Assembly: GCA_005772855.1 (NCBI GenBank)
Contig: SXIK01000012.1
Coordinates: 1 to 39,928 of the forward strand
DNA length: 39,928 nt
Direction of reading: 5' to 3'
Source: Planctomycetia bacterium
GTDB lineage: Bacteria > Planctomycetota > UBA8108 > SXIK01
The translations under genes were made by a program, and so were the position numbers. The notes below the pieces were generated by a model. That model searched no databases and was not told the DNA's origin. It saw nothing but the letters and a program-made list of their open reading frames with translations. Of this stretch, positions 2,424-27,472 are shown one piece after another. Positions within the stretch are counted from its first letter, which is position 1, and each line of letters begins with the position of its first letter.

Positions 2424-2425
2424 GA

Positions 2426-4311: not shown

Positions 4312-4362
4312 CCGCGCCGGCCCAGGCAAGGCTCCGAGAAGACTTCCAGGTCAATTTTACAA

Positions 4363-5989: not shown

Positions 5990-7672
5990 TTGGTAACACC
6001 TATCGAGACGAATCCAGAACTCACCCGACTCCACTTGCAGTCTGCCTCCAGACAGCCTGTCGGATGGTGGAGCCCCACCGACGAGGGTCCCACCCAGGAC
6101 CCGGCGCGGATCGCTTCCGCCCTGATGGACTTACGGAAGAATCTGATCCTCGTGGGAAACCCGCTGAATCCAATGCTGGCCTGCGGAGGTTGGGCCGTCC
6201 TTGGCCGCGATGCCGGGAGGGAGGACGCCCTGCCCATCGTCGCCTTTTCACCATCGCTTCGCCCGGAAGACCTGGGGGATCCGACCTTCTTGAAGGATCA
6301 CGGAGTCCAGTATCCCTACGTCACGGGCGCGATGGCCAACGGTATCGCCTCCGTGGAGGTCGTCGAAGCAGCCTCGCGGGGTGGAATGCTTGGGTTTTTC
6401 GGCTCCGCCGGGCTTCCCCTCGAAACCGTGGCCCGGGCCATCGATCGTTTGCAGACGAGCCTGGGCTCTTCACCCCACGGCTTGAATTTGATCCACAGCC
6501 CCAACGAACCCGGGCTGGAAGCGCAACTCGTGGATCTCTACCTCCAACGCGGAGTTCGCAGGATCGAAGCCTCGGCCTTCATGGAGCTGACTCCCGCGAT
6601 CGTGCGCTACCGTGTTTCCGGGCTCGAGGCCACGCCCGCTGGCGTTGTGGCTCCTCGCAACAGGGTCGTCGCCAAGATCTCACGTGCGGAGGTGGCCACA
6701 AGATTCCTGTCGCCTCCGCCAGAACGGATCCTTGCCGAGCTCCTGGCAAGGGGTCAAATCTCACGCCAGGAGGCTTCGTTTGCAGGGCGGATCGCGATGG
6801 CCGACGATGTGACGGTCGAGGCCGATTCGGGTGGTCACACCGACAACCGGCCGCTGGTCGCTCTCCTGCCCTCGATCATCGCGCTCCGGGACCGTCTCCA
6901 GGCGCAGCACCGCTTTGCGACGCCTGCACGTATCGGCGCCGCAGGTGGAATCTCGACGCCGGCTTCGGCCGCGGCCGCCTTCGCCATGGGCGCAGCCTAC
7001 GTCGTGACAGGATCCGTGAATCAGGCGTGCGTCGAGTCGGGATCGTCCGATGCGGTGAGGATTCTGCTTGCCGAGGCCGGCATGGCGGACATCGCGATGG
7101 CTCCCGCCGCCGACATGTTCGAGATGGGCATCAAGGTGCAAGTCCTGAAACGAGGAACAATGTTCCCCATGCGAGCAGCAAAGCTCTTCGACATCTATCG
7201 CTCCTCATCAAGCCTCGAGACGATCTCTCCACCGGAGCGAGCAAGCCTCGAGCGGGACCTCTTCCGCAGATCTCTCGAAGATGTGTGGCGTGAAACTCAC
7301 GACTTTTTCCTCGCTCGAGACCCGGCGCAGATCGAGCGGGCGCAGCGGGATCCAAAGCACAAGATGGCGCTCGTCTTCCGCTGGTACCTTGGGCTCTCAT
7401 CCCGTTGGGCCAACTCGGGCGATCCCACTCGCAGGCTCGACTATCAGGTCTGGTGCGGCCCCGCGATGGGTGCATTCAACGAATGGACTCGAGGCTCGTT
7501 CCTCGAACAGCCCGCGAACCGCCGCGTGGCCATCGTCGCACGCAATATCCTTCACGGTGCGGCCTACAGTCTCCGTCTGAGCCTGCTGCGATCGCAGGGT
7601 ATACACCTTCAGGGTGTTTCAGCTCGGGCGGCTCCACTCGAATCTCAGGAACTGGACAGGTACTTGAATTGA
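5990..7672 (+). CDS. pfaD: PfaD-type trans-acting enoyl reductase of a PUFA synthase
   Basis: FMN-dependent enoyl-ACP reductase of the 2-nitropropane dioxygenase-like TIM-barrel type. It reduces enoyl intermediates for the iterative synthases encoded next. Family marks include GWWSPTDEG near the N-terminus, IGAAGGISTPASAAAAFAMG and AAYVVTGSVNQAC in the barrel, MAPAADMFEMGIKVQVLKRG, and a C-terminal WCGPAMGAFNEWTRGSFLE region typical of PfaD. At 560 residues it is full length. The start is TTG with GGAGA nine bases upstream. Its TGA overlaps the TTG of the next gene (TTGA, 7669-7672). A pfaD-first gene order resembles the pfa1-pfa2-pfa3 loci of myxobacteria rather than the pfaABCD order of Shewanella. 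Confidence 0.93.
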   Translation: MVTPIETNPELTRLHLQSASRQPVGWWSPTDEGPTQDPARIASALMDLRKNLILVGNPLNPMLACGGWAVLGRDAGREDALPIVAFSPSLRPEDLGDPTFLKDHGVQYPYVTGAMANGIASVEVVEAASRGGMLGFFGSAGLPLETVARAIDRLQTSLGSSPHGLNLIHSPNEPGLEAQLVDLYLQRGVRRIEASAFMELTPAIVRYRVSGLEATPAGVVAPRNRVVAKISRAEVATRFLSPPPERILAELLARGQISRQEASFAGRIAMADDVTVEADSGGHTDNRPLVALLPSIIALRDRLQAQHRFATPARIGAAGGISTPASAAAAFAMGAAYVVTGSVNQACVESGSSDAVRILLAEAGMADIAMAPAADMFEMGIKVQVLKRGTMFPMRAAKLFDIYRSSSSLETISPPERASLERDLFRRSLEDVWRETHDFFLARDPAQIERAQRDPKHKMALVFRWYLGLSSRWANSGDPTRRLDYQVWCGPAMGAFNEWTRGSFLEQPANRRVAIVARNILHGAAYSLRLSLLRSQGIHLQGVSARAAPLESQELDRYLN

Positions 7673-10600
7673 AGCTAAACGGTAAAAACTCGACCTCTTC
7701 CGGCGTGAGCGTGCGTGAGCAAGCATGCCCCATCGCAGTCATCGGAATCGGGTGCATGTTTCCTCGGGCGGAGAACGCCGGAGCGTACTGGGCCAACATC
7801 AAGGGCCGAATCGACGCCATCATCGAGGTCCCCCCGACGCACTGGAGGCGTGAGGAGTACTTCGACGCCGACCCGAAGGCCCCCGACCGAGTCTACTCTT
7901 GCCGCGGTGGATTCCTCTCCCCCGTGGAGTTCAACCCGATCGAGCTCGGTATCAGCCCGCACACGCTGGAAGCCACCGATTCCACCCAGCTTCTGGGACT
8001 ACTGGTCGCAAGGGAAGCGCTCCGGGATGCCGGGTACCTGGGCGGCCGGGTATTCGACAAGAGTCGGGTGAGCGTGATTCTCGGCGTGACGGGCACACTC
8101 GAGCTCGTGATCCCGCTCGGGGCCAGGCTCGGCCATCCCATCTGGAAGCGGGCCCTGAAGGAAGCCGGCGTTCCCGACGAGGTTGCCGCGGACGTCGTCG
8201 AGCGGATCTCGAGCTCCTACGTGCCGTGGCAGGAGAACTCCTTCCCAGGCCTGCTTGGAAATGTTGCGGCGGGCCGCATCGCGAGCCGGCTGGACCTGGG
8301 GGGGACGAACTGCGTGGTCGATGCCGCCTGCGCCAGCTCCTTGAGCGCAGTCCACCTCGCCGCGCTCGAGCTCTCCGCGGGTCGCTGCGACATGGCGGTG
8401 TCGGGAGGACTGGACACCTTCAACGACATCTTCATGTACATGTGTTTCACCAAGACTCCGGCCCTGAGCCCGTCGGGTCACGCGCGGCCCTTCGATGCCG
8501 CAAGCGACGGGACAACGCTCGGCGAAGGGCTCGGCGTGGTCGTGCTCAAGCGCCTTGAGGATGCTCGCCGCGACGGCGACAGGGTTTACGCAGTCATCCG
8601 GGGCATCGGCACCTCCAGCGACGGCAAGGGCAGCGCGATTTATGCTCCCAGCGCCTCCGGGCAAGCCAAGGCGCTGAGGGCGGCTTACGAGGTTTCGGGT
8701 GTAAGCCCGGCCACGATCGAGCTCCTCGAGGCGCATGGCACGGGGACCCGAGTCGGCGATATCACCGAAGCCACTGCGCTCACGGAAGTCTATACCGCGG
8801 CGCGGCCGCACGGCGCCTGGTGCGCAATCGGCTCGGTCAAGTCCCAGATTGGGCACACGAAGGCCGCAGCCGGGGCCGCGGGACTCATCAAGGCCGTCCT
8901 TGCGCTTCACGCGAAAGTTCTACCCCCAACGGCGAAGGTGACACAGCCGGTCGAGCCTCTCCTGCCAGGGAAGAGCCCCTTCTACGTCAACATGGAGTGC
9001 CGCCCCTGGCTTGCCCGATCAAGCCACCCGCGGCGTGCCGCCGTGAGCGCGTTTGGTTTTGGGGGCAGCAACTTCCACTGCGTCATCGAGGAGGCAATCC
9101 CCGAAAAGTCCGCTCCCGACTGGGACGGCGACGTCCAGATCATCCCCTTCAGCGCCTCGAGCGCGGCAGAGCTGGCGACCCACGTGGCCTCGTGGCCCCT
9201 CCGAAGGGCGGCAGAGTCGGCTCACGCCCTCCGCCTCGCGGCGGCTGCCTCCCGCAGGACGTTGGATGGGACCCTGCGGTACCGCCTTGTCGTGGCCGCA
9301 CGGCACGGAGCGTCGGACCTCGGGAAAATGTGGGAATCGCTCGGCGCGCTCCTCCGTTCCCGGGGTAGCGAGCAGGCGTGGATGACACCCGACGGAGCGT
9401 TTTACTGCTCAGCACCCGCGTCCGCGAGGGGGAAGCTGGCGCTGATTTTCCCGGGTCAAGGCTCGCAGCACGTTGGCATGTTGCGGGATCTTGTCTGCCT
9501 CTTTCCAGAAGCGCTGAATGCCATCGCGGAAGGGGACGCCGCCTACTCTGGCGGCACGGAGCTTGAGCACGGGGAGCGCCTGAGCGATCGGATCTACCCG
9601 CCTCACGCCTTTACCACCGAGGAGAGGACGGCGCAGGAAGCAGCCCTCCGCGAAACAGCATGCGCGCAGCCGGCAATCGGCGCAGCCAGCCTCGCTGCGC
9701 TTCGTGTGCTCGCACGCTTTGGCGTGAAGCCCGAGATGACCGCGGGACACAGCTTTGGCGAGTTGACCGCGCTCGCTGCCGCCGGCTGGATCGACCCGCA
9801 TGCCTTGCTCCGTCTCGCCAGCCTCAGAGGCCGCATCATGACTGCCGATACAGGGGACCGAGGAGCCATGGCTGCCGTGGCGCTGCCCCTGAAGGAGCTC
9901 GAGAGCCTTCTTGCGACCGAAGCGCCTGGACTTGTCCTTGCAAACCGAAACACTCCGGTGCAGGGAGTCGTCTCCGGACCGACAGCGCAGGTCGAGAGCC
10001 TCCTGGCGAAGCTTGAGACTCGCGGAGTTCGAGCGAAGCGCCTGCCTGTCTCCGGTGCCTTTCATTCGAGCTTGGTGGCCGCAGCTACGAGGCCCCTTGC
10101 CGATGCGCTCCGCAGCGTGGTCTTCACCCCCACGACCATTCCCGTCTTTTCGAACACACTCGCCCGGGCCTACCCGGAAGACCCCGAGGCGGCGCGCTCT
10201 GTGGTCTCGAGCCATCTTTCGAGCCCGGTCGATTTCGACGGCGAGGTCCGCGCCATGCACCGCCTGGGCGCAAGGGTCTTCCTCGAGGCCGGACCGTCGA
10301 ACAAGCTGACTGGCCTCGTGGGTGCGATCCTCGCAAAGGACGAACACACCGCACTTTGCCTCGATGCCTCTTGCGGCAAGGGGTCGGGCACACTGGAGCT
10401 GGCCCGCACGCTCTGTCAGCTCTGGGCGCTTGGATTTCCCGTCGACCTTGCGAAGTGGGACGAAGCCTTTGATCCCAACCAGGCCCCCCCGGCTGCGAAG
10501 CCCGGCGCGAGTGTCACCCTCACGGGTGCGAACTACGTCAAACCGCGCGAGCGCAAGCCGCCCGTCACTTGTCCCTCTGTCACGGTTCCAGTGTCTGTTC

Positions 10601-13600
10601 CTGCAACTGTTCCTGTTTCCGACTCTGCGGCTCCTCCCGCTCTGGTGCCGGTACCCACGCAAGAGTCCCTCGACTCGACGCTCGCCGCCCTTCTCCAGAT
10701 GCAGGAGAAGACCGCTGAGCTTCACCGCCAATTCCTCGAAGGTCAGGAGACGGCGAACCGAACCCTTCAAAGGATCCTGGAGTCGCAGGCGGGAGCCCCC
10801 GGTTTCCGGCCCATCGAAGTTGCGACGCACACGGGCGAACCGGCGGCGGCGAGAATGGATCCGGCCCCGAGGCCCGAGCCTCAGCCGACGGTCTCGCAAG
10901 GACCAGAGATTCCGGTTCCGATTTCTGGCTCCCCAGAGACTCCCGCCCCGCGTTCTGCACCCCCGGCTCCTCCCGCACCGGCGCTGAAGGCTCCGTCCGG
11001 CTCCGAGATCATCGCTCCGGTGCTCCTCGCGGTCGTGGCGGAGAAGACGGGATATCCCGCAGAGATGCTGAACCTTGACATGAGCCTTGAAGCCGACCTG
11101 GGCATCGACTCCATCAAGCGCGTTGAGATCTTCAGCGCTCTGAGGGAACGGCTCCCCAACGCACCGGAAGTGACGCCAGCCGAGCTGCCGTCTCTCGTCA
11201 CGCTCAGGAGCATCACCGAGTTCCTCGCAGGCTCCGCTGGCCTCGAGGCAGCGCCCCTGGTTACAGCCACAATGCCCTCCATGGAGGCTGCGACTCACTC
11301 CGCAGCAGCCAGCGCGCCGGAGGCGGAGTCCGCGCTGATCAGCACGGTGGCCGAGAAGACGGGGTATCCAGCCGAGATGCTCAACCTGGACATGAGCCTG
11401 GAAGTGGACCTGGGCATCGACTCCATCAAGCGAGTCGAGATCTTCAGTGCGCTTCGCGAGCGGCTGCCCGACGCGCCCGAGATCACACCCGACAAGTTGC
11501 CCCTTCTGGGGACCCTGCGGGCTGTTGCGCAGTTCCTGTCCCACGCCGCCCCGGCGACGTCTTCTGCACTCGAGAAGACTCCGACCTTCACCGTTGCCCC
11601 GTCAACCCCCGAGCTCGCCAAAGCTGCTCCTGAATCCCCCCCGGCGCCCCGGCTGGATCGCTTCGTCATCGAGGCAAAACCGATCGATCGCAAGGGAGGC
11701 GCGAAGCTCCCGCTCAAGCCCGGCGGCGAGGTCTGGATCGCAAGCCGTGACCCCGTCGCGCTGCAAATCGCCGCGCTCCTTCGCGCTCGAGGCTTCGCTG
11801 CCATCGCGCAGAGCCCCCTGGAGCTGCTCGCTCGTCCACAATCCATGTCGTTACACTGGCTCATCCTCTTCGCTCCCCCACCGGAAGCACAGATCGAAGC
11901 TGCCGCTTTCGAGCTGCTCCAGCTGCTCCAGCGCTCCAGCGCCGCACTGCGAACGGGTTCTCACTCCGCACACCCGATGGTCACCGGCATCATCCGACTC
12001 GACGGCCGCTTTAACCTCGAGTCCCCCGCTTCCGCGGAGTCCAGCGTGGCCGCCGGCGCTCTGGCCGGCATCGTCAAGACCGTGGCAAGGGAATGGCCGG
12101 AGGTTCACGCGAGGGTGATCGACCTTGCCGGAGAGCTCACCGATTCGCTTGAGGCTGCCGAGGCTCTGCTCGAGGAGCTGGAGCTGGACGGACCGCTCGA
12201 GCTGGGCCTTTCCCGGGGAGGGGCCACGACGATCGAGACCGTTCGGAGCGCCCTTCCTGAAGAATCATCCCATCGCCAACTCTGCGGACCGGGCGACACC
12301 ATCGTCGTGACCGGGGGCGCCCGAGGAGTGACGGCGGAAGTCGCCGTGGCCCTCGCCGACTACTGGCGCGTGAATCTCCTTCTCCTCGGACGGACTAGGC
12401 CGCCCTCGCCCGGGCCGGCGTCCATCGAGCACCTCGGCACCGAGGCGGAGCTGAAACGGGAGATCCTGCTACGGCTCGGGGAGTCTGCGTCGCCTCGAGC
12501 GGTGACCGAGGAGTACAACCGCCTCGTTGCGGATCGCGAGATCCGTTCGACCTTGAGCCGCATCGAGCGCAATGGAGCACGTGTGCTCTACCGTCAAGCC
12601 GACGTCCGCGATCGGGCGCAAGTCGAACGCGCGCTCAAGGAAGCCCGCACAGCACTCGGCCCCATCCGGGGAGTTGTTCTCGGGGCCGGAGTCCTGGCCG
12701 ACAAGCGAATTGAGGACAAGACCGTGGAGCAAGTGCGCGCTGTGCTTTCAACCAAGGTGGAGGGCGCCAGATGCTTGATCACGGCGACGGAAGGAGACGA
12801 CCTCAAGCTCATCGTTTTCTTCTCCTCGTCCACGGGCCGCTTCGGACGCTCGGGGCAGGTGGACTACGCGGCCGCAAATGACGCGCTCAACAAGCTCGCC
12901 CGGCACGAGGCACGCCGCAAACCAGGCTGCCGCGTGCTCAGCATGAACTGGGGCCCGTGGGAAGGCGGAATGGTCACACCGGTGCTCCGAAAGGTCTTTG
13001 AGACCGAAGGCGTGGGCTTGATCCCCCTCGCCGATGGCTCGCGCCAACTCATCTTGGAGCTCGAAGCCAGGGAATCCCGCGATGTCGAGGTGGTCATCCT
13101 CGCTGATGGCTCCAGATCGCCGGCAAGCTCGGCCGGGAGTCCGGGGGACTTGCCAACCCCGCTGAAGCTGCCCGCTTCCAGCCCCACGAGCCCTTCACAG
13201 ACAGCCTTCAAGCTCGATCTGAGCGTCGACAAATTCCCGCTACTGGCTTCCCACGTCCTCAACGGCAAGGCGGTATTGCCAGCGGCACTCATGCTTGAGT
13301 GGCTGGCCCACGGCGCGATCCATGGCCACCCGGGCCTGATCTTTCAAGGGTTTGAGGAGTTCAAGGTTTTCAAGGGTGTGATTCTTGGGCCGGAGGACAC
13401 GCTGCCTCTTCGCATCACGACCCACGAGAGCATTCCGGGCGCTGACGCTCATTCCCTTCGCGTGCCAGTCGAGCTCTGGAGCGGTGATGCGGGCACGGAT
13501 CGGGTCCACGCACGAGCAACCGTGTTGCTCGGCGACGAGCTGATATCGGCTCCGAGGTTCATCGCCGAGCCCCGCGTGCACCCCTACCCGCAGCGCGGAC

Positions 13601-14076
13601 CACTCTACGACGGCCAGCGGCTCTTTCATGGACGCGACTTCCACGCAATCGACCGCGTCGAGGGGGTGAGCGAGGAAGGAATCACAGCCCTCGTACGGAC
13701 TAGCCCGCCGCCCGCCACATGGATCCAACGACCTCTCCGGGGGTCGTGGATCACGGATCCACTCGCCATCGATGCCGCATTCCAGCTGTTGATCCTGTGG
13801 AGCTTCGAGCGGCACGGCAAGGGTTGCCTGCCCTCGGCCGTTGGCTCCTACCGACAGTTCCGGCGAGCCTTTCCGCACAATGGATTGCGCCTCCTTGCCA
13901 GGGTGACCCGCTCGACGCCGAGCTCGGTCGAGGCCGAAGTCGATCTGGTCGCACTCGATGGGAAACCGGTGGCCCGAATGGAGCGGTGTGAATGCGTCCT
14001 CGATGAGTCGCTCGAGGCTGCGTTTGGCCGTAACCAGATCTCGGGACGCACGGCCGACGGATCCAACCGTTCATGA
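7669..14076 (+). CDS. pfaA: PfaA-type PUFA synthase, KS-AT-ACP-ACP-KR-DH
   Basis: Iterative multidomain synthase of 2135 residues that elongates and processes a polyene acyl chain from malonyl units. Domains in order: ketosynthase about 20-460 with Cys221 (DAACASS), His356 (EAHGTGT) and His396 (GHTKAAAG); malonyl acyltransferase about 590-890 with FPGQGSQ and GHSFGE (Ser695); a Val/Pro linker and helical segment (about 1000-1045, TLAALLQMQEKTAELHRQFL); two carrier domains with LGIDSIKR serines 1148 and 1252; ketoreductase with TGGARGVTAE (about 1548) and Tyr1733; and a C-terminal hot-dog dehydratase with H-x3-G-x4-P (His1862). The start is TTG 7669, overlapping the pfaD stop, with a weak AGG eight bases upstream; GTG 7705 is an alternative. 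Only two carrier domains are present, against about five in Shewanella. The stop overlaps the next ATG. Confidence 0.94.
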   Translation: MKLNGKNSTSSGVSVREQACPIAVIGIGCMFPRAENAGAYWANIKGRIDAIIEVPPTHWRREEYFDADPKAPDRVYSCRGGFLSPVEFNPIELGISPHTLEATDSTQLLGLLVAREALRDAGYLGGRVFDKSRVSVILGVTGTLELVIPLGARLGHPIWKRALKEAGVPDEVAADVVERISSSYVPWQENSFPGLLGNVAAGRIASRLDLGGTNCVVDAACASSLSAVHLAALELSAGRCDMAVSGGLDTFNDIFMYMCFTKTPALSPSGHARPFDAASDGTTLGEGLGVVVLKRLEDARRDGDRVYAVIRGIGTSSDGKGSAIYAPSASGQAKALRAAYEVSGVSPATIELLEAHGTGTRVGDITEATALTEVYTAARPHGAWCAIGSVKSQIGHTKAAAGAAGLIKAVLALHAKVLPPTAKVTQPVEPLLPGKSPFYVNMECRPWLARSSHPRRAAVSAFGFGGSNFHCVIEEAIPEKSAPDWDGDVQIIPFSASSAAELATHVASWPLRRAAESAHALRLAAAASRRTLDGTLRYRLVVAARHGASDLGKMWESLGALLRSRGSEQAWMTPDGAFYCSAPASARGKLALIFPGQGSQHVGMLRDLVCLFPEALNAIAEGDAAYSGGTELEHGERLSDRIYPPHAFTTEERTAQEAALRETACAQPAIGAASLAALRVLARFGVKPEMTAGHSFGELTALAAAGWIDPHALLRLASLRGRIMTADTGDRGAMAAVALPLKELESLLATEAPGLVLANRNTPVQGVVSGPTAQVESLLAKLETRGVRAKRLPVSGAFHSSLVAAATRPLADALRSVVFTPTTIPVFSNTLARAYPEDPEAARSVVSSHLSSPVDFDGEVRAMHRLGARVFLEAGPSNKLTGLVGAILAKDEHTALCLDASCGKGSGTLELARTLCQLWALGFPVDLAKWDEAFDPNQAPPAAKPGASVTLTGANYVKPRERKPPVTCPSVTVPVSVPATVPVSDSAAPPALVPVPTQESLDSTLAALLQMQEKTAELHRQFLEGQETANRTLQRILESQAGAPGFRPIEVATHTGEPAAARMDPAPRPEPQPTVSQGPEIPVPISGSPETPAPRSAPPAPPAPALKAPSGSEIIAPVLLAVVAEKTGYPAEMLNLDMSLEADLGIDSIKRVEIFSALRERLPNAPEVTPAELPSLVTLRSITEFLAGSAGLEAAPLVTATMPSMEAATHSAAASAPEAESALISTVAEKTGYPAEMLNLDMSLEVDLGIDSIKRVEIFSALRERLPDAPEITPDKLPLLGTLRAVAQFLSHAAPATSSALEKTPTFTVAPSTPELAKAAPESPPAPRLDRFVIEAKPIDRKGGAKLPLKPGGEVWIASRDPVALQIAALLRARGFAAIAQSPLELLARPQSMSLHWLILFAPPPEAQIEAAAFELLQLLQRSSAALRTGSHSAHPMVTGIIRLDGRFNLESPASAESSVAAGALAGIVKTVAREWPEVHARVIDLAGELTDSLEAAEALLEELELDGPLELGLSRGGATTIETVRSALPEESSHRQLCGPGDTIVVTGGARGVTAEVAVALADYWRVNLLLLGRTRPPSPGPASIEHLGTEAELKREILLRLGESASPRAVTEEYNRLVADREIRSTLSRIERNGARVLYRQADVRDRAQVERALKEARTALGPIRGVVLGAGVLADKRIEDKTVEQVRAVLSTKVEGARCLITATEGDDLKLIVFFSSSTGRFGRSGQVDYAAANDALNKLARHEARRKPGCRVLSMNWGPWEGGMVTPVLRKVFETEGVGLIPLADGSRQLILELEARESRDVEVVILADGSRSPASSAGSPGDLPTPLKLPASSPTSPSQTAFKLDLSVDKFPLLASHVLNGKAVLPAALMLEWLAHGAIHGHPGLIFQGFEEFKVFKGVILGPEDTLPLRITTHESIPGADAHSLRVPVELWSGDAGTDRVHARATVLLGDELISAPRFIAEPRVHPYPQRGPLYDGQRLFHGRDFHAIDRVEGVSEEGITALVRTSPPPATWIQRPLRGSWITDPLAIDAAFQLLILWSFERHGKGCLPSAVGSYRQFRRAFPHNGLRLLARVTRSTPSSVEAEVDLVALDGKPVARMERCECVLDESLEAAFGRNQISGRTADGSNRS

Positions 14077-17000: not shown

Positions 17001-20000
17001 GATACCGCTTCCCTCGCCGCAGGGGTCGAGGCGGCCACACGACGCCTCCTCTCCGGCAAGGATCCTGCGCCCCAGGTAGTGGGCGCTCACGGCACGAAAC
17101 CGGCCACATTTCACTGGACCCCGGAACCTCTCGGACGCAGCGGTCGCGTCGCCTTCGTATTCCCGGGCTCGGGGAGCCAGCTCACCGGCATGGGACGCGA
17201 CCTCGCAGCGACCTGGCCGGACGTGCTCCGCACGCTCGACCGGAAGAATTTGCGACTCGCCTCGCAGATGGCTCACGGCCGACTGTGGGAACCTCGAATT
17301 TCCTCCCAGGCCTGCCCGGATCACTGCTCCTTGATCCTCGCGCAAGTCTCGTTGGGCGCAGCCATCAGTGACCTCGTGCGCTTCTTCGGGGTCGAGCCCC
17401 AGGCCGCGATCGGTTACAGCCTCGGCGAGTCGACCTCGCTATTCGCCCTGGAAGCCTGGCGGGAGCGCGACGAGATGCTTCGTCGCATCGAGGCCTCGAC
17501 CCTGTTCACCGACGACCTCGCCGGACCTTGCGAGGCGGCCAGGCGCGCCTGGCACCTCGGCCCCCGGGACCGTGTGGATTGGCTGGTCGGAGTGGTGGAT
17601 CGTCCGGCCGTCCAGGTGCGTGCCTCGCTCTTGAACTTCCCGCGGGCGTATCTTCTCATTGTCAACTCGCCCCATGAGTGCGTGATCGGCGGCGATCGTT
17701 CCGCGGTGGATCGCCTCGTCAAGGCGCTCGGGGCTGGCTTCCTCCCGCTCGAAGGCGTCACGACGGTGCACTGCGAGGTCGCTCGTGAGGTTGCGGACGC
17801 GTACCGTTCCCTCCACCTTTTTGACACCACACCGCCGGAGGGTGTGACCTTCTACAGCGCGGCCTGGGGACACTCGTATGTGCCCACTCGCGAGGCCGCA
17901 GCCGACTCCATTCTCGCGCAGGCAGTCCAGCCTTTTGACTTCACGAAGGGAATCGAATCGGCCCACAACGACGGAGTCAGGATCTTCCTGGAGGTGGGCC
18001 CCGGGAGCTCGACCACCCGAATGGTCGGAAAGATCCTTGCGGGCCGCCCCCATGTGGCGCTCGCGACGTGCCCCGGCACGGTCGATGAAGTCACAGCCTT
18101 TCTTCGTTTTCTGGCAAGCTGCCTCGCCGAGGGCCTTCCCGTCAACCTCGAGCGCCTCTACCCCCCGGCGTCCCCGCCATCAGCATCCTCCGCGACGGCG
18201 AGGACCCCTGGCGCGACGATGACCGTGCGCTGCGGCACGCTGCTCGATGCCCCCACCGCGCCAGCTCCAGCTGCGCCAGCTCCAGCCACACCGCCACGTG
18301 TACTTGCGCCTTCGCTGCAGAGAATCCAGCGTGCCGGGGTCCCCTCCACGCGAGGAGCCTCGCTGGCGGAACGATGCATTGCGGCTCAATCGGCCTCCAT
18401 GGCAGCCGAGGATGTGTTCCAGCGCACACGAGCACTGGGCCTGCGGACGATCGAGCAGGTCGCAGCCTTGCGAGCACGAGTGCAGAGCGCTCCAGCAGCT
18501 TCGCGCCAGCGAGAGGCACTGCTGCCGACGCTCGGGACGAATCTGAAGCGGCAACCATTCCTCGATCGAGCCCAGTGCCTCGAGTTTGCCGCCGGAGCCG
18601 TGGCCAACGTGCTCGGGCCGCGCTTCGCCCCAATCGATGCCCATCCCACCCGGGTCCGGCTTCCCAGCGGACCACTGATGCTCGTCGACCGTATCCTTTC
18701 GATCGAGGGCGAGCCGCTCTCCATGACTCCGGGCCGCGTGGTCACCGAGCACGACGTGACGCCCGATCGATGGTACCTCGATTGCGGTCGAATCCCAGTG
18801 AGCGTGGCTGTCGAGGCGGGCCAGGCCGATCTCTTCCTCTCTGGGTATCTCGGAATTGATCTCGAGACCAGGGGGCTGGCCGTCTATCGGCTGCTCGATG
18901 CCGTGGTGACGTTTCATCGGGGCCTTCCCTCCCCTGGAGAAAAAATCCATTACGACATCCGCATTGAGCGCTTTTTCCGTCAAGGCCCAACGTGGCTCTT
19001 CCGCTTCCGGTTCGATGCGAGCATCCAACAACAACCCTTTCTCACGATGGAAAACGGCTGCGCCGGGTTCTTCACGCAAGCCGAGCTCGGGGCCGGCAAG
19101 GGCATCGTGCACACCGCGCTCGACCGCAGGCCAGGCACTGGAAAGCGCCCGAATGATTGGCGGCCGCTCGTGCCAATGGCTGTCGAGTCCTTCGATGACT
19201 TCCAGGTGAGCGCCCTGCGGGGAGGCGATCTATCCGCTGGCTTCGGACCGAGCTTCTCGAGGCTCGGGCTCAGGAAGCCCGTCACGTTGCCGTCGGGGAA
19301 GCTCACGCTCGTCGACCGGGTGGAGAGCCTGAATCCCACCGGCGGCCGATACGGACTCGGCCTCATCCGCGCCGAGATGGACATCCACCCGGACGATTGG
19401 TTCCTCACATGCCACTTTGTCGACGACCCGGTCATGCCGGGCACGCTCATGTACGAGTGCTGCCTGCACACGCTACGGATCTTTTTACTCAGGATGGGCT
19501 GGGTCGGCGAAACTGGCACCGTTGCGTACGAGCCTGTGCCAAACCAATCGAGCCAGCTCAAGTGCCGGGGACAGGTGGTTGCCTCCACGAGGAAGGTGAC
19601 CTACGAGGTCACGATCCGTGAGCTGGGTTACCGCCCCGAGCCATACGCCCTGGCGGACGCTCTCATGTACGCGGACGGAAAGCCCATCGTGGAGATCCTT
19701 GGCATGAGTGTATGCCTCAAGGGTCTCACCCGCGCTGGCATCGAGGCGATGTGGCAAGAGGCTGCGGGGGCGGCGGCGCAGCGTCCCGAAGGTCCCCGGC
19801 GACCGGCCCTCTTCGACGAGAAGAGCATCCTTGCCTTCGCCGTGGGAAAGCCCTCCGAGGCCTTCGGCACGCCCTACCAGATCTTCGACTCGAAGCGCGT
19901 GATCGCGCGTTTACCGGGCCCACCCTATCAGTTTCTCGATCGCATCGTTGAGGTGCGCAACGCCAGGCCCTTCGTCATGCAGGCAGGAGGCCCGATCGAG

Positions 20001-20888
20001 GCCGAATATGACGTCCCGCCAGCCGCCTGGTACTTCGAGGCCAACCGTTCCAGCGAGATGCCCTTCTGCGTGCTCCTCGAGGCCGCCTTGCAGCCTTGCG
20101 GGTGGTTCTCGGCATACGTGGGCTCGGCGCTCACAAGCCCCACGGACGTCTCCTACCGCAACCTCGGCGGCAGCGCAATCAAGCTCGCCGAAGTAACTCG
20201 GACGACCGGAACCTTGACGACGCGGGTCCAGCTGACGAAGGTCTCTCAGTCCGGCGGCATGATCATCCAGCACTTCGACTTCGAAATGCGCAGTGAGGCG
20301 GGACCGGTTTACAGGGGGAACACCTACTTTGGCTTCTTCTCGAAGACTGCGCTTGCGCAGCAGGTGGGAATCCGCGACACGCCGCGTCACACGCCCGATG
20401 AGGCCGAGCTGCGGCGCGCCGAGGCGTTTGCCTACCCCGAGGCGCCGCCGTTCCCGGACGCACGGCTCTGCATGAGCACTCAAGTGGACGCATGGATTCC
20501 ACAAGGCGGGCCGCACCGCCTCGGATTCATCCGCGGGTCAAAGCCTGTCGATGCCTCGGAGTGGTTCTTCAAGGCCCACTTCCTTCAGGACCCGGTGTGG
20601 CCCGGATCACTCGGGCTGGAGTCGTTCCTCCAGCTTCTCAAGGCCGCCGCTGCGCGCCGCTGGGGCTCTTCCGCGCGGGATTCATTCCTCACGCCCTCCG
20701 TGGGTGAGAAGCACGAGTGGATCTACCGTGGTCAGGTGCTTCCCACGAACAAGCGGGTCGAGGTCGAAGCGGTCCTCACCAAGATCGACGACTCGGAAAG
20801 GCTCCTGGGGGCCGACGGCTTCCTCTCGAGAGATGGCCTTCCCATCTACCAGCTAAAAGGCTTTACGCTTAGAATGTTGCGCTTGTGA
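14073..20888 (+). CDS. pfaC: PfaC-type PUFA synthase, KS-CLF-AT-DH-DH
   Basis: Second synthase subunit, 2271 residues. It contains a ketosynthase (about 1-460; Cys205 in DAACASS, His339 in ECHGTGT, His382 in VGHLLTAAG) and a chain-length-factor-like domain (about 485-915). In the latter the nucleophile position reads FTLSSEETSGL, placing Glu642 where a KS has Cys. A PfaB-like acyltransferase follows (about 1020-1400; FPGSGSQ, GYSLGES with Ser1116), then a Pro/Ala linker and two FabA-like double-hot-dog dehydratases (about 1500-2271). Their catalytic histidines are His1781 (CHFVDDPVMPG) and His2169 (AHFLQDPVWPG). This is the myxobacterial Pfa3 layout without its C-terminal acylglycerophosphate acyltransferase; the protein stops soon after the last dehydratase. 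The acyltransferase is fused here, so no separate pfaB is needed. The start ATG overlaps the pfaA stop and the TGA overlaps oleA. Confidence 0.93.
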   Translation: MSSGPLEIAIVGMGTAFPGDDGLEGFWRTIEGAVDTAREVPRDRWAIPREVVHDPEGPKPDHVYSLRGCFVERSLLDSDEQEALNRLRAGELPSRSPDAGREQQLSSALLGNLDPVFHLALRAGLRAWHDGRLDRLSSATRGRSAVILGNIVLPTEKASELALELLGRARRPVHPLNRYPAGLPAAVLANALGLHGPAFTLDAACASSLYSLAIAARELERGRIDLALAGGISRPDCLYTQMGFSQLRALSPTGRCSPFDSKADGLVVGEGAGILVLKRLGDALRDGDRIVAVIRAVGLSNDIAGSLMSPASEGQLRAMHAAHRRAGWRPEDLDLIECHGTGTPVGDAVELSSLETLWRETGARVDPLRRCVVGSVKSNVGHLLTAAGAAGVIKVILALRNKQLPPTANSRQPLNALEASKAFRILSLPLPWSRRDAATPRRAAVSAFGFGGINAHLLLEEWDESLPTARLKGRSAEPPGAAFAEPWVAIVGMDTHFGAATSLEAFRQRVLRSTEDDLEPTPEGPPLGSIEIDWTRFRIPPRELAETLPQQLLMLKVAAGALDDAGLKNPDRMGIGVFIGIALDLNTTNFHARWCASPSERDLVHPPLTANRTMGALGGIVASRIARWLQAGGPSFTLSSEETSGLRALETAVRALQAGDVSIAIAGAVDIASDERATRGANALRPFSPSGRARPFAASADGAVPGEGAAAVVLKRLEDAVRDGDRLYAVIRGIGSSVGSGHIGAPPEVETYISALERAHEDAKFDPALVDWIEAHGSGDPGEDAVEAEALEHFFGRLETDTPCAMGSAKGTIGHTGAAAGLASIVKAALCLREELLPPLPGPRPLRVELERSGRLYAPRKLRYWLRDRARGPRRVGVSAMGIDGSCIHVCLEGVEPTAPLASEACEPTSPARSVSPAVFALGAPEIASLREELDELRAFAARRQERPVESLASEWLATRRGVIAQNPFCAALVAQDTASLAAGVEAATRRLLSGKDPAPQVVGAHGTKPATFHWTPEPLGRSGRVAFVFPGSGSQLTGMGRDLAATWPDVLRTLDRKNLRLASQMAHGRLWEPRISSQACPDHCSLILAQVSLGAAISDLVRFFGVEPQAAIGYSLGESTSLFALEAWRERDEMLRRIEASTLFTDDLAGPCEAARRAWHLGPRDRVDWLVGVVDRPAVQVRASLLNFPRAYLLIVNSPHECVIGGDRSAVDRLVKALGAGFLPLEGVTTVHCEVAREVADAYRSLHLFDTTPPEGVTFYSAAWGHSYVPTREAAADSILAQAVQPFDFTKGIESAHNDGVRIFLEVGPGSSTTRMVGKILAGRPHVALATCPGTVDEVTAFLRFLASCLAEGLPVNLERLYPPASPPSASSATARTPGATMTVRCGTLLDAPTAPAPAAPAPATPPRVLAPSLQRIQRAGVPSTRGASLAERCIAAQSASMAAEDVFQRTRALGLRTIEQVAALRARVQSAPAASRQREALLPTLGTNLKRQPFLDRAQCLEFAAGAVANVLGPRFAPIDAHPTRVRLPSGPLMLVDRILSIEGEPLSMTPGRVVTEHDVTPDRWYLDCGRIPVSVAVEAGQADLFLSGYLGIDLETRGLAVYRLLDAVVTFHRGLPSPGEKIHYDIRIERFFRQGPTWLFRFRFDASIQQQPFLTMENGCAGFFTQAELGAGKGIVHTALDRRPGTGKRPNDWRPLVPMAVESFDDFQVSALRGGDLSAGFGPSFSRLGLRKPVTLPSGKLTLVDRVESLNPTGGRYGLGLIRAEMDIHPDDWFLTCHFVDDPVMPGTLMYECCLHTLRIFLLRMGWVGETGTVAYEPVPNQSSQLKCRGQVVASTRKVTYEVTIRELGYRPEPYALADALMYADGKPIVEILGMSVCLKGLTRAGIEAMWQEAAGAAAQRPEGPRRPALFDEKSILAFAVGKPSEAFGTPYQIFDSKRVIARLPGPPYQFLDRIVEVRNARPFVMQAGGPIEAEYDVPPAAWYFEANRSSEMPFCVLLEAALQPCGWFSAYVGSALTSPTDVSYRNLGGSAIKLAEVTRTTGTLTTRVQLTKVSQSGGMIIQHFDFEMRSEAGPVYRGNTYFGFFSKTALAQQVGIRDTPRHTPDEAELRRAEAFAYPEAPPFPDARLCMSTQVDAWIPQGGPHRLGFIRGSKPVDASEWFFKAHFLQDPVWPGSLGLESFLQLLKAAAARRWGSSARDSFLTPSVGEKHEWIYRGQVLPTNKRVEVEAVLTKIDDSERLLGADGFLSRDGLPIYQLKGFTLRMLRL

Positions 20889-21940
20889 TGCGCTATACGA
20901 AAGTGTTTCTCGAGTCGATTGGCTATGAGCTTCCACCCTACGTTGTGACGACGAGGGAGCTGGAGGATCAGATACTGCCCGTGTACGAGGCGCTCAAGAT
21001 TTCACCGGGCCAGGTGGAGGCCATGACGGGGATCACGGAGCGGCGCTGGTGGGAGGAAGGCTTTGAGGTCACGCGCGGAGCGGTCGCTGCGGCACGGAAG
21101 GCCATCGAGGGCTCCACCGTCCAGCCTCACGAGATCGAGGCCGTGGTCTACGGTGGTGTTTGCCGCGAGCAGCTCGAGCCCGCAACTGCCTGTCGGGTCG
21201 CGGCCGAGATCGGCACGAGCCCCGACGCGGCAGTTTACGACGTTTCGAACGCCTGCCTCGGCCTGCTGAACGGCATCCTCGACATCGCCAACCGGATCGA
21301 GCTGGGCCAGATTCGTGCAGGTCTGGTTGCCACGTGCGAGTCGGCCCGGGAAATCACGCAGATCACCATGGCTCGTATGCTCGAGCTGCCGAGCTTCGAG
21401 GTCTTCACCTCCTCTCTCGCCACTCTCACCGGCGGCTCCGGAGCCGCCGCCGTTCTCCTCACCGACGGTTCATTTTCAAGCTCTGGCCAGCGGAGGCTGC
21501 GAGGCGGCGTCCTCCGTACTGCGCCAGAAAGGCACAACCTCTGCCGCTGGGGCTTCGTCCCGAGGGGCCAGGAGGTTGGCTCGGGTTTCAATCAGCTCAT
21601 GACCACGGACTCAATCAACGTACTCAAGTATGGCGTGGAGCTGGGGCAGAAAACCTGGGAAGCTTTCCTGCGCGGACTGGAGTGGACTCGAGAGCAGGTC
21701 GACAAGGTGATTTGCCACCAGGTCGGTTCGAGCCATCGGAATTCGATCCTGGAGGGTCTCGGGATCCCTGGCGACCGCGACTACACGACTTTTCAGTACC
21801 TGGGCAACATGGGCACCGTGTCACTTCCGCTGACCGCCGCGCTCGCCGAACAGAGACGCTTCCTCCGCCGTGGGGACCGCGTCGGATTCCTCGGGATCGG
21901 GAGCGGTCTCAACTGCCTGATGCTGGGGCTTGAATGGTAA
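20885..21940 (+). CDS. oleA: OleA, acyl-CoA/ACP head-to-head condensing thiolase
   Basis: Catalyses non-decarboxylative Claisen condensation of two fatty acyl thioesters to a beta-keto acid, the first step of long-chain olefin synthesis. It has the KASIII-like fold. Numbering from ATG 20888, Cys123 (SNACLG), His277 (CHQVGSSH) and Asn307 (YLGNMGT) form the thiolase triad. Glu97 (LEPATA) lies 26 residues before the Cys, exactly the Glu117-Cys143 spacing of Xanthomonas OleA. That glutamate marks OleA rather than FabH. His and Asn are 30 apart, also as in OleA. The start is GTG 20885 or ATG 20888, both overlapping the pfaC stop. In this operon the partner synthase probably supplies polyenoyl chains, and OleA may act as the release enzyme; that is inference. 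Confidence 0.92.
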   Translation: MMRYTKVFLESIGYELPPYVVTTRELEDQILPVYEALKISPGQVEAMTGITERRWWEEGFEVTRGAVAAARKAIEGSTVQPHEIEAVVYGGVCREQLEPATACRVAAEIGTSPDAAVYDVSNACLGLLNGILDIANRIELGQIRAGLVATCESAREITQITMARMLELPSFEVFTSSLATLTGGSGAAAVLLTDGSFSSSGQRRLRGGVLRTAPERHNLCRWGFVPRGQEVGSGFNQLMTTDSINVLKYGVELGQKTWEAFLRGLEWTREQVDKVICHQVGSSHRNSILEGLGIPGDRDYTTFQYLGNMGTVSLPLTAALAEQRRFLRRGDRVGFLGIGSGLNCLMLGLEW

Positions 21941-22848
21941 CGAGGACGATCACGCCGCGGCTCTATCCATTCCAGGGCTCGCGCCTCAACGTTGATGGGG
22001 CCTCGCTCCATTACCTCGATGAGGGCCGGGGCGATCCGGTGGTGATGCTCCACGGCAATCCATCGTGGTCTTTTTACTACCGCAACCTGGTGCAAGCGCT
22101 TCGTGGGCGATTTCGAGTGATCGCGCCGGACCACGTCGGCTGCGGCCTCTCGGACAAGCCGACCGATGACCGTTATCCCTACACGCTCCAGCGGCGAGTG
22201 GATGACATCGACCAGTTGCTCGAGCACCTTGGCGTACGTTCCCGCATCACGCTCGTCCTTCACGACTGGGGTGGGATGATCGGGCTCGCCTACATGGCCC
22301 GGCAGCCCGAACGGGTGGGCCGGGTAATTCTGTTCAACACGGCCGGCTTCCGCCTTCCAGGAAAAAAGAGGTTTCCTTGGGAGTTGCGCCTCGCACGGTC
22401 GCCAGTCCTCGGAGCCTTTCTCGTCCGCGGCCTGAACCTCTTTGCGCGCGGGGCGGCCAGGGCCGGCGTCACTCGCCGAAAGATGGAGCCCGAGGTGCGC
22501 GCAGGGTATCTGGCGCCTTACGCCTCGTTTGCGGAACGAATCGCGGTTCATCGCTTCGTGCAGGACATCCCGCTCTGCCCCCGCGACCCCTCGTTCAGCA
22601 TCGTCGAGGCCGTCGAGGACAACCTCGCGAGGCTCCGCAACTTGCCGGTGCTGATTGCCTGGGGTGCTCGAGACTTTATTTTTGACGACGCTTTCCTGGC
22701 CGAATGGCGTCATCGCCTGCCCGGAGCAGAGGTCCACCGAATTGCTGATGCCGGCCATTACGTGCTCGAGGATGCCTTCGAGGACGTGCTTCCGCTCGTG
22801 CGCGACTTCCTCGATCGTCATCCCATCGCCGGCGAGGCCGCGTTCTGA
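21934..22848 (+). CDS. oleB: OleB, beta-lactone decarboxylase (alpha/beta hydrolase)
   Basis: Final step of the Ole pathway: decarboxylates the cis-beta-lactone to a cis-olefin. It is a haloalkane-dehalogenase-like alpha/beta hydrolase of 304 residues. The oxyanion region reads HGNPSWSFYY, the nucleophile is Asp111 in LHDWGGMIG, the acid is probably Asp251 (DFIFDD) and the catalytic histidine is His275 (DAGHYVLED). A dehalogenase-like fold between oleA and oleC, with an aspartate nucleophile, is the OleB signature. The start ATG lies inside the last codons of oleA (7-base overlap), and the TGA shares one base with the oleC ATG. In some bacteria OleB is fused to OleC; here they are separate. 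Confidence 0.91.
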   Translation: MVTRTITPRLYPFQGSRLNVDGASLHYLDEGRGDPVVMLHGNPSWSFYYRNLVQALRGRFRVIAPDHVGCGLSDKPTDDRYPYTLQRRVDDIDQLLEHLGVRSRITLVLHDWGGMIGLAYMARQPERVGRVILFNTAGFRLPGKKRFPWELRLARSPVLGAFLVRGLNLFARGAARAGVTRRKMEPEVRAGYLAPYASFAERIAVHRFVQDIPLCPRDPSFSIVEAVEDNLARLRNLPVLIAWGARDFIFDDAFLAEWRHRLPGAEVHRIADAGHYVLEDAFEDVLPLVRDFLDRHPIAGEAAF

Positions 22849-24536
22849 TGGAGACTCACCCCGGAAGCACGACAGAAGCTGCTCCGCGAAGAGATCTCCG
22901 CAAGAATATCGCCTCGGCGCTCAGTCGCCTGGCCACCCTCCAGCCGCGCCAGAGCGCCGTCGTTATTCCCGGGCGTGGAGGCCGGGGGGTTCGTGCGAGC
23001 TGGAGCTACGCCGAGCTCGACACAAGAAGCGCGGCGCTGGCTTCAGGGCTCGAATCCGTTGGTGTCGGACGCGGCTCACGCTGTGTCGTCATGGTTCCAC
23101 CGGGCCTGGAGTTCTTCAGCCTCATCTTCGCTCTCCTGCGCTCCGGCATCGTGCCCGTCGTCGTGGACCCTGGCATGGGCTTCAGAAACCTGAGGCAGTG
23201 CCTGTGCGAGGCCAGGCCCGACGCCTTCATCGGCATCCCCAGGGCCAACGCTGCTCGAGCGGTGCTCGGTTGGGCCCGAGAGACCGTGCGCACGGTCGTC
23301 ACAACGGGCCCCTTTCGGCTGGGCCGTGGCTTCACGCTTCGCGACCTCGAATCCCGTGGTCTGTCGGCTCCCGCAAAAGAGCCCGTGGCGCTTGGAGATC
23401 AGGAGACCGCCGCGATTCTTTTCACGAGCGGATCGACGGGCCCGCCCAGGGGCGCGGTCTACACGCACTCGAACTTCGCAGCTCAGGTGGAGGCGCTGCG
23501 CACAACCTATTCGATCGAGCCCGGCGAAATCGACCTCTGCACTTTTCCCCTCTTTGCGCTCTTTGCTCCGGCGCTCGGCATGACCGCCGTCGTCCCCGAC
23601 ATGGACCCCACGCACCCCGCACGCGCCGATCCGGAGCGATTGCTCCGGACGGCCCGTGAGTTCGGCGCAACGAACTTCTTTGGGTCCCCGGCCCTGATTC
23701 GAAACGTGGGCCATTACGCCTCCCGGACTGGATTTCGTGTGCCCACCCTGCGCCGTGCGATCTCGGCTGGAGCGCCGGTTCCAGCGAAGGCGATCGAAAA
23801 ATTTCTTGCGGTCCTTCCTCCGGGAGCGCAGGTCTTCACTCCTTATGGCGCGACGGAAGCGCTGCCGGTGTCGTCGATCGGTAGCGATGAGATCCTGGGG
23901 GTGACCCGGCGCCTCACGGACGAGGGCAAGGGCATCTGCGTCGGCCGTGCGGCGGGCGAAGTCGAGATCGAAATCATCCGCGTGAGTGACGAACCCATCC
24001 CCACGTGGTCGCCTGCTCTGCGCGTCCGGGACGGGGAGATCGGCGAGATCGCAGTACGCGGGGACATCGTCACGACGGAGTACTTCGGCCGCCCCGAAGC
24101 GACACGTCTTGCGAAGATCAGCACTGGAACCGGGATCCTGCATCGCATGGGCGACCTTGGCTGGCGAGACGGCCAGGGACGAATTTGGTTTTGCGGACGC
24201 AAGTCTCATCGTGTTCACACCCCGGAGGGAGTTCTCTACACCATTGCTTGTGAGGCGGTTTTCAACACCCTTGCGGGAATCTCTCGCACGGCTCTTGTCG
24301 GCGTCCAACGCACCGGATCGGTTGAGCCTGCACTCGTTGTTGAGCTCGACAGTCACATTCGCAGCAACCAGAGGGCACGCCTGGCACGTGAGCTCTGCGA
24401 AATTGCCCAGCGGTATCCTCACACTCAAACGATCAAGAAGGTGCTCTTCCACCCTCGATTTCCTGTCGACATCCGCCACAATGCCAAGATTGCACGGGAA
24501 AAACTGGCCCGTTGGGCGGCAAAGAGGTTGCCGTGA
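22848..24536 (+). CDS. oleC: OleC, beta-lactone synthetase (AMP-forming ligase family)
   Basis: Converts the beta-hydroxy acid made by OleD to a beta-lactone using ATP. It is an ANL-superfamily protein of 562 residues with the P-loop-like motif ILFTSGSTGPPRGAVYTH (about 190-207), the adenine-site motif YGATEALPVSS, a DLGWRDGQGRIWFCGR hinge region and a C-terminal lid. Alone it would be called an acyl-CoA ligase, but its place between OleB and OleD and the ALPVSS form after YGATE identify it as OleC. The start ATG overlaps the oleB stop (TGATG), and the stop overlaps the GTG of oleD (GTGA). The product lactone passes to OleB. Confidence 0.91.
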   Translation: METHPGSTTEAAPRRDLRKNIASALSRLATLQPRQSAVVIPGRGGRGVRASWSYAELDTRSAALASGLESVGVGRGSRCVVMVPPGLEFFSLIFALLRSGIVPVVVDPGMGFRNLRQCLCEARPDAFIGIPRANAARAVLGWARETVRTVVTTGPFRLGRGFTLRDLESRGLSAPAKEPVALGDQETAAILFTSGSTGPPRGAVYTHSNFAAQVEALRTTYSIEPGEIDLCTFPLFALFAPALGMTAVVPDMDPTHPARADPERLLRTAREFGATNFFGSPALIRNVGHYASRTGFRVPTLRRAISAGAPVPAKAIEKFLAVLPPGAQVFTPYGATEALPVSSIGSDEILGVTRRLTDEGKGICVGRAAGEVEIEIIRVSDEPIPTWSPALRVRDGEIGEIAVRGDIVTTEYFGRPEATRLAKISTGTGILHRMGDLGWRDGQGRIWFCGRKSHRVHTPEGVLYTIACEAVFNTLAGISRTALVGVQRTGSVEPALVVELDSHIRSNQRARLARELCEIAQRYPHTQTIKKVLFHPRFPVDIRHNAKIAREKLARWAAKRLP

Positions 24537-25564
24537 GAGTGCTTGTAACGGGTGGAGGAGGATTCATCGGAGGCGGTGTCGCCCGGAGGCTGCTCGAGCT
24601 GGGTCACACCGTCCGATCCCTGGCTCGGGGCGAGTACCCCGAGCTCGCAAACCTCGGCATCGACGTGCGACGAGGCGACATTGCCAATGAGAGCGCGGTC
24701 GAGTCCGCGACCAGAGGCTGCGATGCCGTCATTCACACTGCGGCCAAGGCTGGTGTTTGGGGATCACGGATCGAATACGAACGCGCCAACGTCGTGGGCA
24801 CTCGCAACGTGATTGGCGCCTGCCACAAGGGTGGCTGTGGACTCCTCGTCTTCACGAGCTCACCCAGCGTCGTCTTCGATGGCCGCCATCAGGAGAACGT
24901 GGACGAATCAGCGCCCTACCCGGGCCGTTTTCTTGCAAGCTACCCGCGCACGAAGGCGGAAGCCGAGCGGCTCGTGCTCGAGGCGAACAGCCCGAATCTT
25001 GCAACGGTGGCCCTTCGACCGCACCTCGTCTGGGGGCCCGGCGACCGCAACCTCGTGCCGAGAGTCCTTGAACGAGCCCACGCAGGCTCCTTGCGCTCGG
25101 TGCGTGAGCGCTCCGGACAGTCCCGACTCGTCGACTCGACATTCATCGACAACGCGGTCGAGGCGCACGAGCTCGCCCTTCAGAGCATCGCACGAAGCGG
25201 AACCGCGCGGGGCAAGGCTTACTTTATCTCCAATGGTGAACCGCTTCCCATGGAAGAGCTGCTCAACCGAATCCTGGAGGCTGCGGGCCTGCCGGCGATT
25301 CGGCGGACAGTCTCACCCCTCATGGCCTACACGGCCGGCGCTGTGCTCGAGTGCGTGAGCGCTCTTCTCCATCGCTGCAAGGAGCCCCCCATGACGCGTT
25401 TCGTGGCACGGCAACTCGCCACCGCCCACTGGTTCGACTTGAGCGCGGCGCGAAGGGACCTTGGCTACCGTCCCGGGGTCTCGCTCGCCGAGGGCTTTCA
25501 GCGCCTTGAAGCATGGTTGCGTTCCACAAGCCCCGGGCTGAAGGCCTTTCCGTGGTGCAACTGA
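24533..25564 (+). CDS. oleD: OleD, NADPH-dependent 2-alkyl-3-ketoacyl acid reductase
   Basis: Extended short-chain dehydrogenase that reduces the OleA beta-keto acid to the beta-hydroxy acid. The Rossmann motif VTGGGGFIGGGVARRL is at the very N-terminus. The catalytic triad is a Ser in FTSSPSVVF with Tyr137 and Lys141 (YPRTK). The C-terminal half follows the 3-beta-hydroxysteroid dehydrogenase/isomerase pattern (RPHLVWGPGD, then a membrane-leaning helix SPLMAYTAGAVLECV). GTG 24533, overlapping the oleC stop, is chosen because it places the Rossmann strand at residues 3-7; an ATG at 24512 lies inside oleC and would add seven residues. Length 343. It is followed after seven bases by the phosphopantetheinyl transferase gene. 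Confidence 0.9.
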   Translation: MRVLVTGGGGFIGGGVARRLLELGHTVRSLARGEYPELANLGIDVRRGDIANESAVESATRGCDAVIHTAAKAGVWGSRIEYERANVVGTRNVIGACHKGGCGLLVFTSSPSVVFDGRHQENVDESAPYPGRFLASYPRTKAEAERLVLEANSPNLATVALRPHLVWGPGDRNLVPRVLERAHAGSLRSVRERSGQSRLVDSTFIDNAVEAHELALQSIARSGTARGKAYFISNGEPLPMEELLNRILEAAGLPAIRRTVSPLMAYTAGAVLECVSALLHRCKEPPMTRFVARQLATAHWFDLSAARRDLGYRPGVSLAEGFQRLEAWLRSTSPGLKAFPWCN

Positions 25565-25571
25565 CTCGTTC

Positions 25572-26294
25572 ATGATGATCGCGCCCAACGACGTCTGGAT
25601 TTTCACGGCCGACCTCGACACCCGCGGAGCTCAACTCTCCGGAGATCTGGGCCTGCTTTCAGGCGAAGAAAAGGCGCGGTTTGAACGCTTCAAGGTGGAG
25701 ACCCCTGCGCGAAGGTTCGTCGCCGCTCGCGCGTTCCTGCGCGAGGTCCTTGCACGCATCATCACGACGGATTCCCGGTCGATCTCCTTCGTTTACGGGC
25801 CGGAAGGAAAACCCTCCCTTGCCGATCGAGAGGGTTTGTCGAGGATCGAGTTCAACCTCTCACACTCGGCCGAGTTCGCGGTCCTGGCTGTCACGCGAGG
25901 TCGCACTGTCGGGGTGGACGTCGAGTACGTGCGTGACTCGGTCGAGGTCGAGTCCCTGGCGAAACGCTTCTTCTCGGCGCGGGAACGAGAGAGCTTGCTC
26001 TCGTTGGAGAGGGGCGAACGCCAGCGCTCCTTCTTCGCGTGCTGGACCCGGAAGGAGGCGTACCTCAAGGCAAGGGGCGGCGGGCTCACGATTCCACTCG
26101 ACCGCTTCGATGTGAGCCTCGCACCCGGTGAGACTCCTTGTTTACTCGCCGACCGGGGAGATCCGGATGCACCCAGCTCCTGGCAACTTCATTCGCTGAC
26201 CCTGGATCCCCGGGCAGAGGCCGCCCTGGCGGTGGCCGCAACGACCGGCGAGAACCTCTCGATCCAGGTGAATCGATCCTTGAGGGGAGCCTGA
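25572..26294 (+). CDS. Sfp-type 4'-phosphopantetheinyl transferase
   Basis: Transfers phosphopantetheine from CoA to the carrier-domain serines; the obvious targets are the two carrier domains of the PfaA-type synthase (PfaE function). The 240-residue pseudo-dimeric Sfp type shows a KPSLADREG and FNLSHSAEFAVLAV region, then GVDVEYV (Asp116) and WTRKEAYLKARG (Lys161, Glu162), the magnesium and CoA-binding signature. Two ATGs (25572, 25575) are adjacent; no strong Shine-Dalgarno is seen, and the 7-base gap to oleD indicates the same transcript. As the last gene it makes the operon self-sufficient for activation. It faces the convergent DUF218 gene across about 110 bases. Confidence 0.92.
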   Translation: MMIAPNDVWIFTADLDTRGAQLSGDLGLLSGEEKARFERFKVETPARRFVAARAFLREVLARIITTDSRSISFVYGPEGKPSLADREGLSRIEFNLSHSAEFAVLAVTRGRTVGVDVEYVRDSVEVESLAKRFFSARERESLLSLERGERQRSFFACWTRKEAYLKARGGGLTIPLDRFDVSLAPGETPCLLADRGDPDAPSSWQLHSLTLDPRAEAALAVAATTGENLSIQVNRSLRGA

Positions 26295-26387: not shown

Positions 26388-26402
26388 ACCGGCCCCCCGG
26401 TG

Positions 26403-27191: not shown

Positions 27192-27311
27192 GGAGCGGCA
27201 CCCCACCCGATTCCAGGACCGAAGTCAAGCAGCGCACCACGTCGGCCGCTTTTATACCGCACGCGGGCAGTGATGAGACCTTTTGCAGCCTGCGAAAGGA
27301 TGTGGCTGCTC

Positions 27312-27398: not shown

Positions 27399-27472
27399 CG
27401 CCGGCGGCGTCGTCAGCACCTCGGTCCAGGTCGAGGGCTCGGCGTCGCTGACCGCCCAGCCGGCCGCGCCCG

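Follow-up and report, generated by a model that had tools for sequence, protein, structure and literature searches.

A planctomycete gene cluster of the Geobacter tandem pfa–ole type, with an OleA of the Pfa-associated group and a probable polyene hydrocarbon product

The closest described counterpart of the locus presented here is found in Geobacter bemidjiensis, where pfaD, A, B, C, oleA, B, C, D and pfaE lie in tandem (Yoshida et al. 2016, PMC4882568) and the product is the polyene hydrocarbon C31:9 (C31H46; PMC3098273). Shulse & Allen (2011; PMC3098273) reported frequent linkage of ole genes to pfa-like clusters, and described a ‘Type I’ arrangement with a fused pfaBC—the planctomycete Gemmata obscuriglobus among those listed—which they proposed to feed olefin synthesis. 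Allemann et al. (2019; PMC6463001) found that OleA joins the Pfa and Ole pathways in Escherichia coli, yielding a 31:8 ketone, and that clustering of oleABCD with pfa occurs; the same paper documents that Shewanella produces both EPA and C31:9, and that no hydrocarbon was detectable in Photobacterium profundum SS9, whose pfa and ole operons adjoin. A preliminary description of the DNA analysed here had raised the possibility that the linkage was unreported; we reject its novelty on the strength of these 2011–2016 publications, which include a planctomycete carrying such a synthase, and of its frequency among Planctomycetota relatives (see below). Both arrangement and interpretation are already known: the cluster is a further member and reveals no new kind of system, the useful addition being a sharp grouping of OleA sequences and the breadth of the cluster in Planctomycetota.

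The window—the whole 39,928-nt stretch that we analysed—derives from a metagenome-assembled draft (5.0 Mb, 244 contigs) that yielded no 16S gene. We assign it to Planctomycetota through its relatives: planctomycete probe target sites occur in the 16S of two genomes of the same phylum, one of which also shares its class. Open reading frames and family scans show that positions 5990–26294 are filled by eight intact genes, all on the plus strand: pfaD (5990–7672), pfaA (7669–14076), pfaC (14073–20888), oleA (20885–21940), oleB (21934–22848), oleC (22848–24536), oleD (24533–25564) and a pfaE-like phosphopantetheinyl transferase (25572–26294). Working along the cluster, pfaD and pfaA share a TTGA overlap, given our proposed TTG start for pfaA at 7669 (the listed start at 7405 merely gives the longest frame; GTG codons at 7705 and 7711 could also serve); pfaA and pfaC overlap by 4 nt; pfaC and oleA by 4 nt with the GTG start of oleA at 20885, or by 1 nt with ATG 20888; oleA and oleB by 7 nt; oleB and oleC by 1 nt; and oleC and oleD by 4–25 nt, according to the choice of start codon (GTG 24533, with TTG 24512 possible). 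The widest spacing within the cluster is the 7-nt gap between oleD and the transferase gene. These junctions, together with the reading frames and family scans, bear out the initial account of eight co-directional, overlapping or near-touching genes over 20 kb. Terminator-like sites are in no excess over shuffled sequence (6 versus 5.7 expected; 4 versus 8.6), and no sigma-70-like site was found across 5200–29500; from sequence, we infer a single co-transcribed operon running from pfaD to the transferase.

PfaD, the enoyl reductase of the PUFA synthase, scores 649 bits against TIGR02814 (cut-off 449) and PfaA 1410 bits against TIGR02813 (cut-off 1010), placing each within its family; the domains of PfaA run KS-MAT-ACP-ACP-KR-PS-DH, with two ACP motifs. 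In PfaC, the domain scan identifies a KS, a CLF in which the active-site Cys is replaced by Glu, an acyltransferase (AT, 1028–1323), and a series of four FabA-type hot-dog DH modules that match FabA structures, two of them with the catalytic His intact. Across 24 homologues (a few rows being gapped at these positions) the Cys and His of the KS, the Ser and His of the AT and the two DH His residues are conserved; in nearly all of them, the catalytic His is absent from the other two modules. Owing to its internal AT domain, PfaC is a PfaBC fusion; the preliminary description had identified the synthase correctly and left this domain unmentioned. The transferase (PF01648) carries PUFA-type P1a (EGKP) and P1b (FNLSH) motifs. 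The P0 motif (hRxhLS) has no match in the protein, the nearest being GLLSGEE, which lacks the Arg; P0 has been reported for the phosphopantetheinyl transferases of Types A–D, F, I and L as a group, and is not type-defining (PMC3098273). A transferase gene also lies 3′ of oleD in at least eight related Planctomycetota, and its product here is expected to activate the ACPs of PfaA.

OleA, the head-to-head condensing thiolase, reaches 468 bits against PRK09258 (cut-off 285), matches the Xanthomonas OleA structures at about 1e-52, and has Glu97, Cys123, His277 and Asn307 (numbered from ATG 20888) in alignment with the catalytic residues of the Xanthomonas enzyme. OleB, a beta-lactone decarboxylase with a haloalkane-dehalogenase fold, has its nucleophile Asp111 within an HDWGG motif, as well as His275 (numbered from ATG 21934); counted from these two start codons, the catalytic sets named at the outset for both enzymes are correct. 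The beta-lactone synthetase OleC scores 703 bits against PRK09274 (cut-off 478), the next models being olefin beta-lactone synthetases that fall under cut-off. For OleD, the 2-alkyl-3-oxoalkanoate reductase, the two best models are the OleD equivalogs NF042422 and NF042423 (402 and 398 bits, both under the cut-off of 580), and the YxxxK motif is present. Certain OleB, OleC and OleD scores lie under strict equivalog cut-offs; assignment of these three also draws on the conserved oleABCD order, besides models and motifs.

Set against the described systems, the locus reproduces the one-strand order of the G. bemidjiensis tandem cluster, pfaD-pfaA-pfa(B)C-oleA-oleB-oleC-oleD-pfaE, as published (PMC4882568), although the two belong to different phyla and are likened by gene order rather than by sequence. 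With Type I it shares the fused pfaBC, with an AT inside a KS-CLF-DH protein, and the P1a/P1b motifs of the transferase, whereas the P0 motif is missing here; the match that we claim is to the tandem arrangement, formal Type I membership being possible. The enzymatic steps are those of Shewanella pfaABCDE and oleABCD, where OleA likewise joins Pfa-derived chains; there, however, pfaB is separate, the ole genes are sometimes elsewhere in the genome, and EPA is also made. In P. profundum SS9 pfa adjoins ole, as here, but as two operons with pfaT between them; we identified no linked pfaT thioesterase gene within the window. Finally, the OleA of Xanthomonas campestris OleABCD has the same catalytic Glu/Cys/His/Asn set, yet condenses saturated and unsaturated chains from general metabolism, has no tie to a PUFA synthase, and differs at the positions that mark Pfa-associated OleAs.

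Pfa-associated OleAs are set apart in a maximum-likelihood tree of 81 OleAs, in which 47 PUFA-synthase-associated rows are split from 34 rows of genomes without PfaD by one branch with 100/100 support; a rooted quick tree agrees. The 47 take in one genome (G141) with pfaC beside oleA and no PfaD match, and seven sequences from other phyla. When PfaD was sought afterwards in those seven non-planctomycete genomes it was found in every one (7/7), including three Psychromonas and one Desulfobacterales whose fetched ole locus showed no pfaC beside oleA. Residues that separate the two sides fully or nearly so are Gln43/Arg, Gly183/Ile, Thr180/Ser, Ile157/Leu, Trp222 (within LCRWG) and Tyr89/His, numbered in this case from GTG 20885; apart from the Xanthomonas OleA in the first tree, the non-Pfa side is entirely planctomycete, so that, on that side, the rule for the split is otherwise sampled within one phylum. 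Some OleAs carry an insertion of roughly 20–50 residues after LCRWG (L062/L063 of G220 and L091 of G283; L092 of G216 and L094 of G253 judging by length). PfaC and OleA distances correlate strongly (r = 0.905 over 24 genomes, falling to 0.64 when one dense family is left out). Joint travel of the two is expected to give such a correlation, and shared ancestry alone would give one too. Because the OleAs of Pfa genomes all fall to one side of the 100/100 branch, with PfaD present in 7/7 outside the phylum, the OleA of this cluster would be specialised for Pfa products. We lean towards a broader reading, in which Pfa-serving OleAs make up a single group that spans phyla and has fixed diagnostic residues, such that OleA alone would be enough to predict a polyene hydrocarbon, with pfa linked or unlinked, and in which pfa and ole may have moved across phyla as a unit. 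The OleA clustering of Sukovich (2010) may already have shown part of the same grouping.

The preliminary description had suggested looking for pfaC–oleA adjacency in other genomes, and it proves widespread. In our sample of 294 Planctomycetota genomes (OleA match threshold 1e-60), OleA is present in 103, PfaD in 44 and both in 39; in the five of 44 pfaD-bearing genomes that lack an OleA match, Pfa may serve another end product or the assemblies may be incomplete. pfaC lies immediately 5′ of oleA on the same strand (within 171 bases by alignment ends) in 31 Planctomycetota genomes from 14 families, namely the source genome and 30 others. Since G141 shows this adjacency yet has no PfaD match, 30 of the 39 genomes with both genes are adjacent; in the remaining nine the genes are farther apart or on separate contigs, some of which are short. 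Outside the phylum, two Riflebacteria and one Desulfobacterota (Desulfamplus) share this order. Several Planctomycetota that lack PfaD carry an OleA-like gene (L071, L074, L076, L078, L081 and comparable loci) for which no partner (oleB, oleC or oleD) is matched closer than about 6 kb. Closer to home, an OleA match is absent from all nine other genomes sampled from the source genome's family and order, and one of these, from the same family, retains the block found downstream of the cluster (32861–37256, minus strand), comprising a HEAT-repeat protein, a radical SAM protein, DJ-1/PfpI and ThiI; for this reason we think that gain or loss probably involved the whole cluster at once, close to its present location.

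Immediately 3′ of the cluster, ARAGORN calls a 92-nt tRNA-Arg (anticodon gcg; 26402–26493, minus strand), which, given the patchy distribution of the cluster, could mark an integration site; given its unusual length, it is possibly a false call. Beyond it, 26500–29400 is GC-rich (about 0.68–0.69) with long overlapping reading frames on both strands, the three plus-strand frames that we scanned having no Pfam match. On the other side, 1–5439 has divergent minus-strand genes for an ABC exporter, an HlyD-type adaptor and outer-membrane efflux, and then a two-domain methyltransferase upstream of pfaD. We considered whether the cluster extends into its flanking genes and rejected this, matches in related loci being weak or generic: one HlyD match at 24% identity among the related pfa–ole loci, and the acyl-CoA ligase matching OleC.

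In the pathway that we propose, the transferase encoded last would activate the PfaD/PfaA/PfaBC-fusion synthase, which would build up, by iteration, a polyunsaturated acyl chain with methylene-interrupted double bonds, 16:4 n-3 being the likeliest; two such chains would be condensed head to head by the Pfa-dedicated OleA to a beta-keto acid, which reduction by OleD, beta-lactone closure by OleC and decarboxylation by OleB would convert to a long-chain polyene. This hydrocarbon is probably hentriacontanonaene (C31:9) or a closely related homologue, and should reside in the membrane. On the strength of an OleA specialised for Pfa products, a polyene hydrocarbon, probably C31:9 or close to it, is the likeliest product. 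Chain length, unsaturation and the balance with free PUFA are inferred: PfaA has two ACPs, and length is not readable from sequence. Our literature search found no planctomycete C31:9 chemistry. The functional reading, a Pfa polyene passed to head-to-head olefin synthesis as first suggested, is well supported by the conserved gene order, the separate group of Pfa-associated OleAs and the C31:9 made by Geobacter with the same order; that this is a Geobacter-type tandem cluster making a polyene hydrocarbon from Pfa chains, by way of a Pfa-dedicated OleA, we hold with considerable confidence.

The same initial suggestion went further, in having the polyene made for hydrocarbon ‘rather than phospholipid’, and this is unproven. 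As SS9 made no detectable hydrocarbon from adjacent operons, adjacency alone is no proof of hydrocarbon output; Shewanella makes both end products, and five pfaD-bearing Planctomycetota lack an OleA match, all of which would suit a synthase working mainly for phospholipid PUFA beside ole genes that draw on general acyl-CoA or operate only under some conditions. We nevertheless judge that alternative unlikely, if the most serious of those weighed, given that OleAs of Pfa genomes stand apart with full support, that the ole genes here sit within one row of overlapping genes, and that the OleA of Shewanella takes only the Pfa-derived chain despite the presence of a type II FAS (PMC6463001). A polyene ketone or beta-lactone as end product is very improbable: OleA alone does yield ketone, and beta-lactones come from oleACD clusters without oleB (PMC7064751), but oleB is present here with its Asp111 nucleophile and His275, and comes after oleA at almost every Pfa-linked locus examined. 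An artefact of assembly or binning, for which one might cite the fragmentation of the draft and the 0/9 order-level relatives with an OleA match, we reject for the arrangement itself as scarcely credible, the junction overlaps spanning only a few bases, the same order recurring in independent genomes (30 other Planctomycetota and three genomes of two other phyla), and the flanking genes being syntenic with those of a family member.

For the preferred reading, in which Pfa chains pass through a dedicated OleA to a polyene hydrocarbon, the OleA grouping gives an easy way to recognise Pfa-fed olefin synthesis from sequence, and singles out residues to mutate. Judging by gene content, planctomycetes would commonly carry a dedicated polyene-hydrocarbon pathway, and C31:9 in membranes or sediments is therefore not necessarily a marker of cold marine gammaproteobacteria or of Geobacter.
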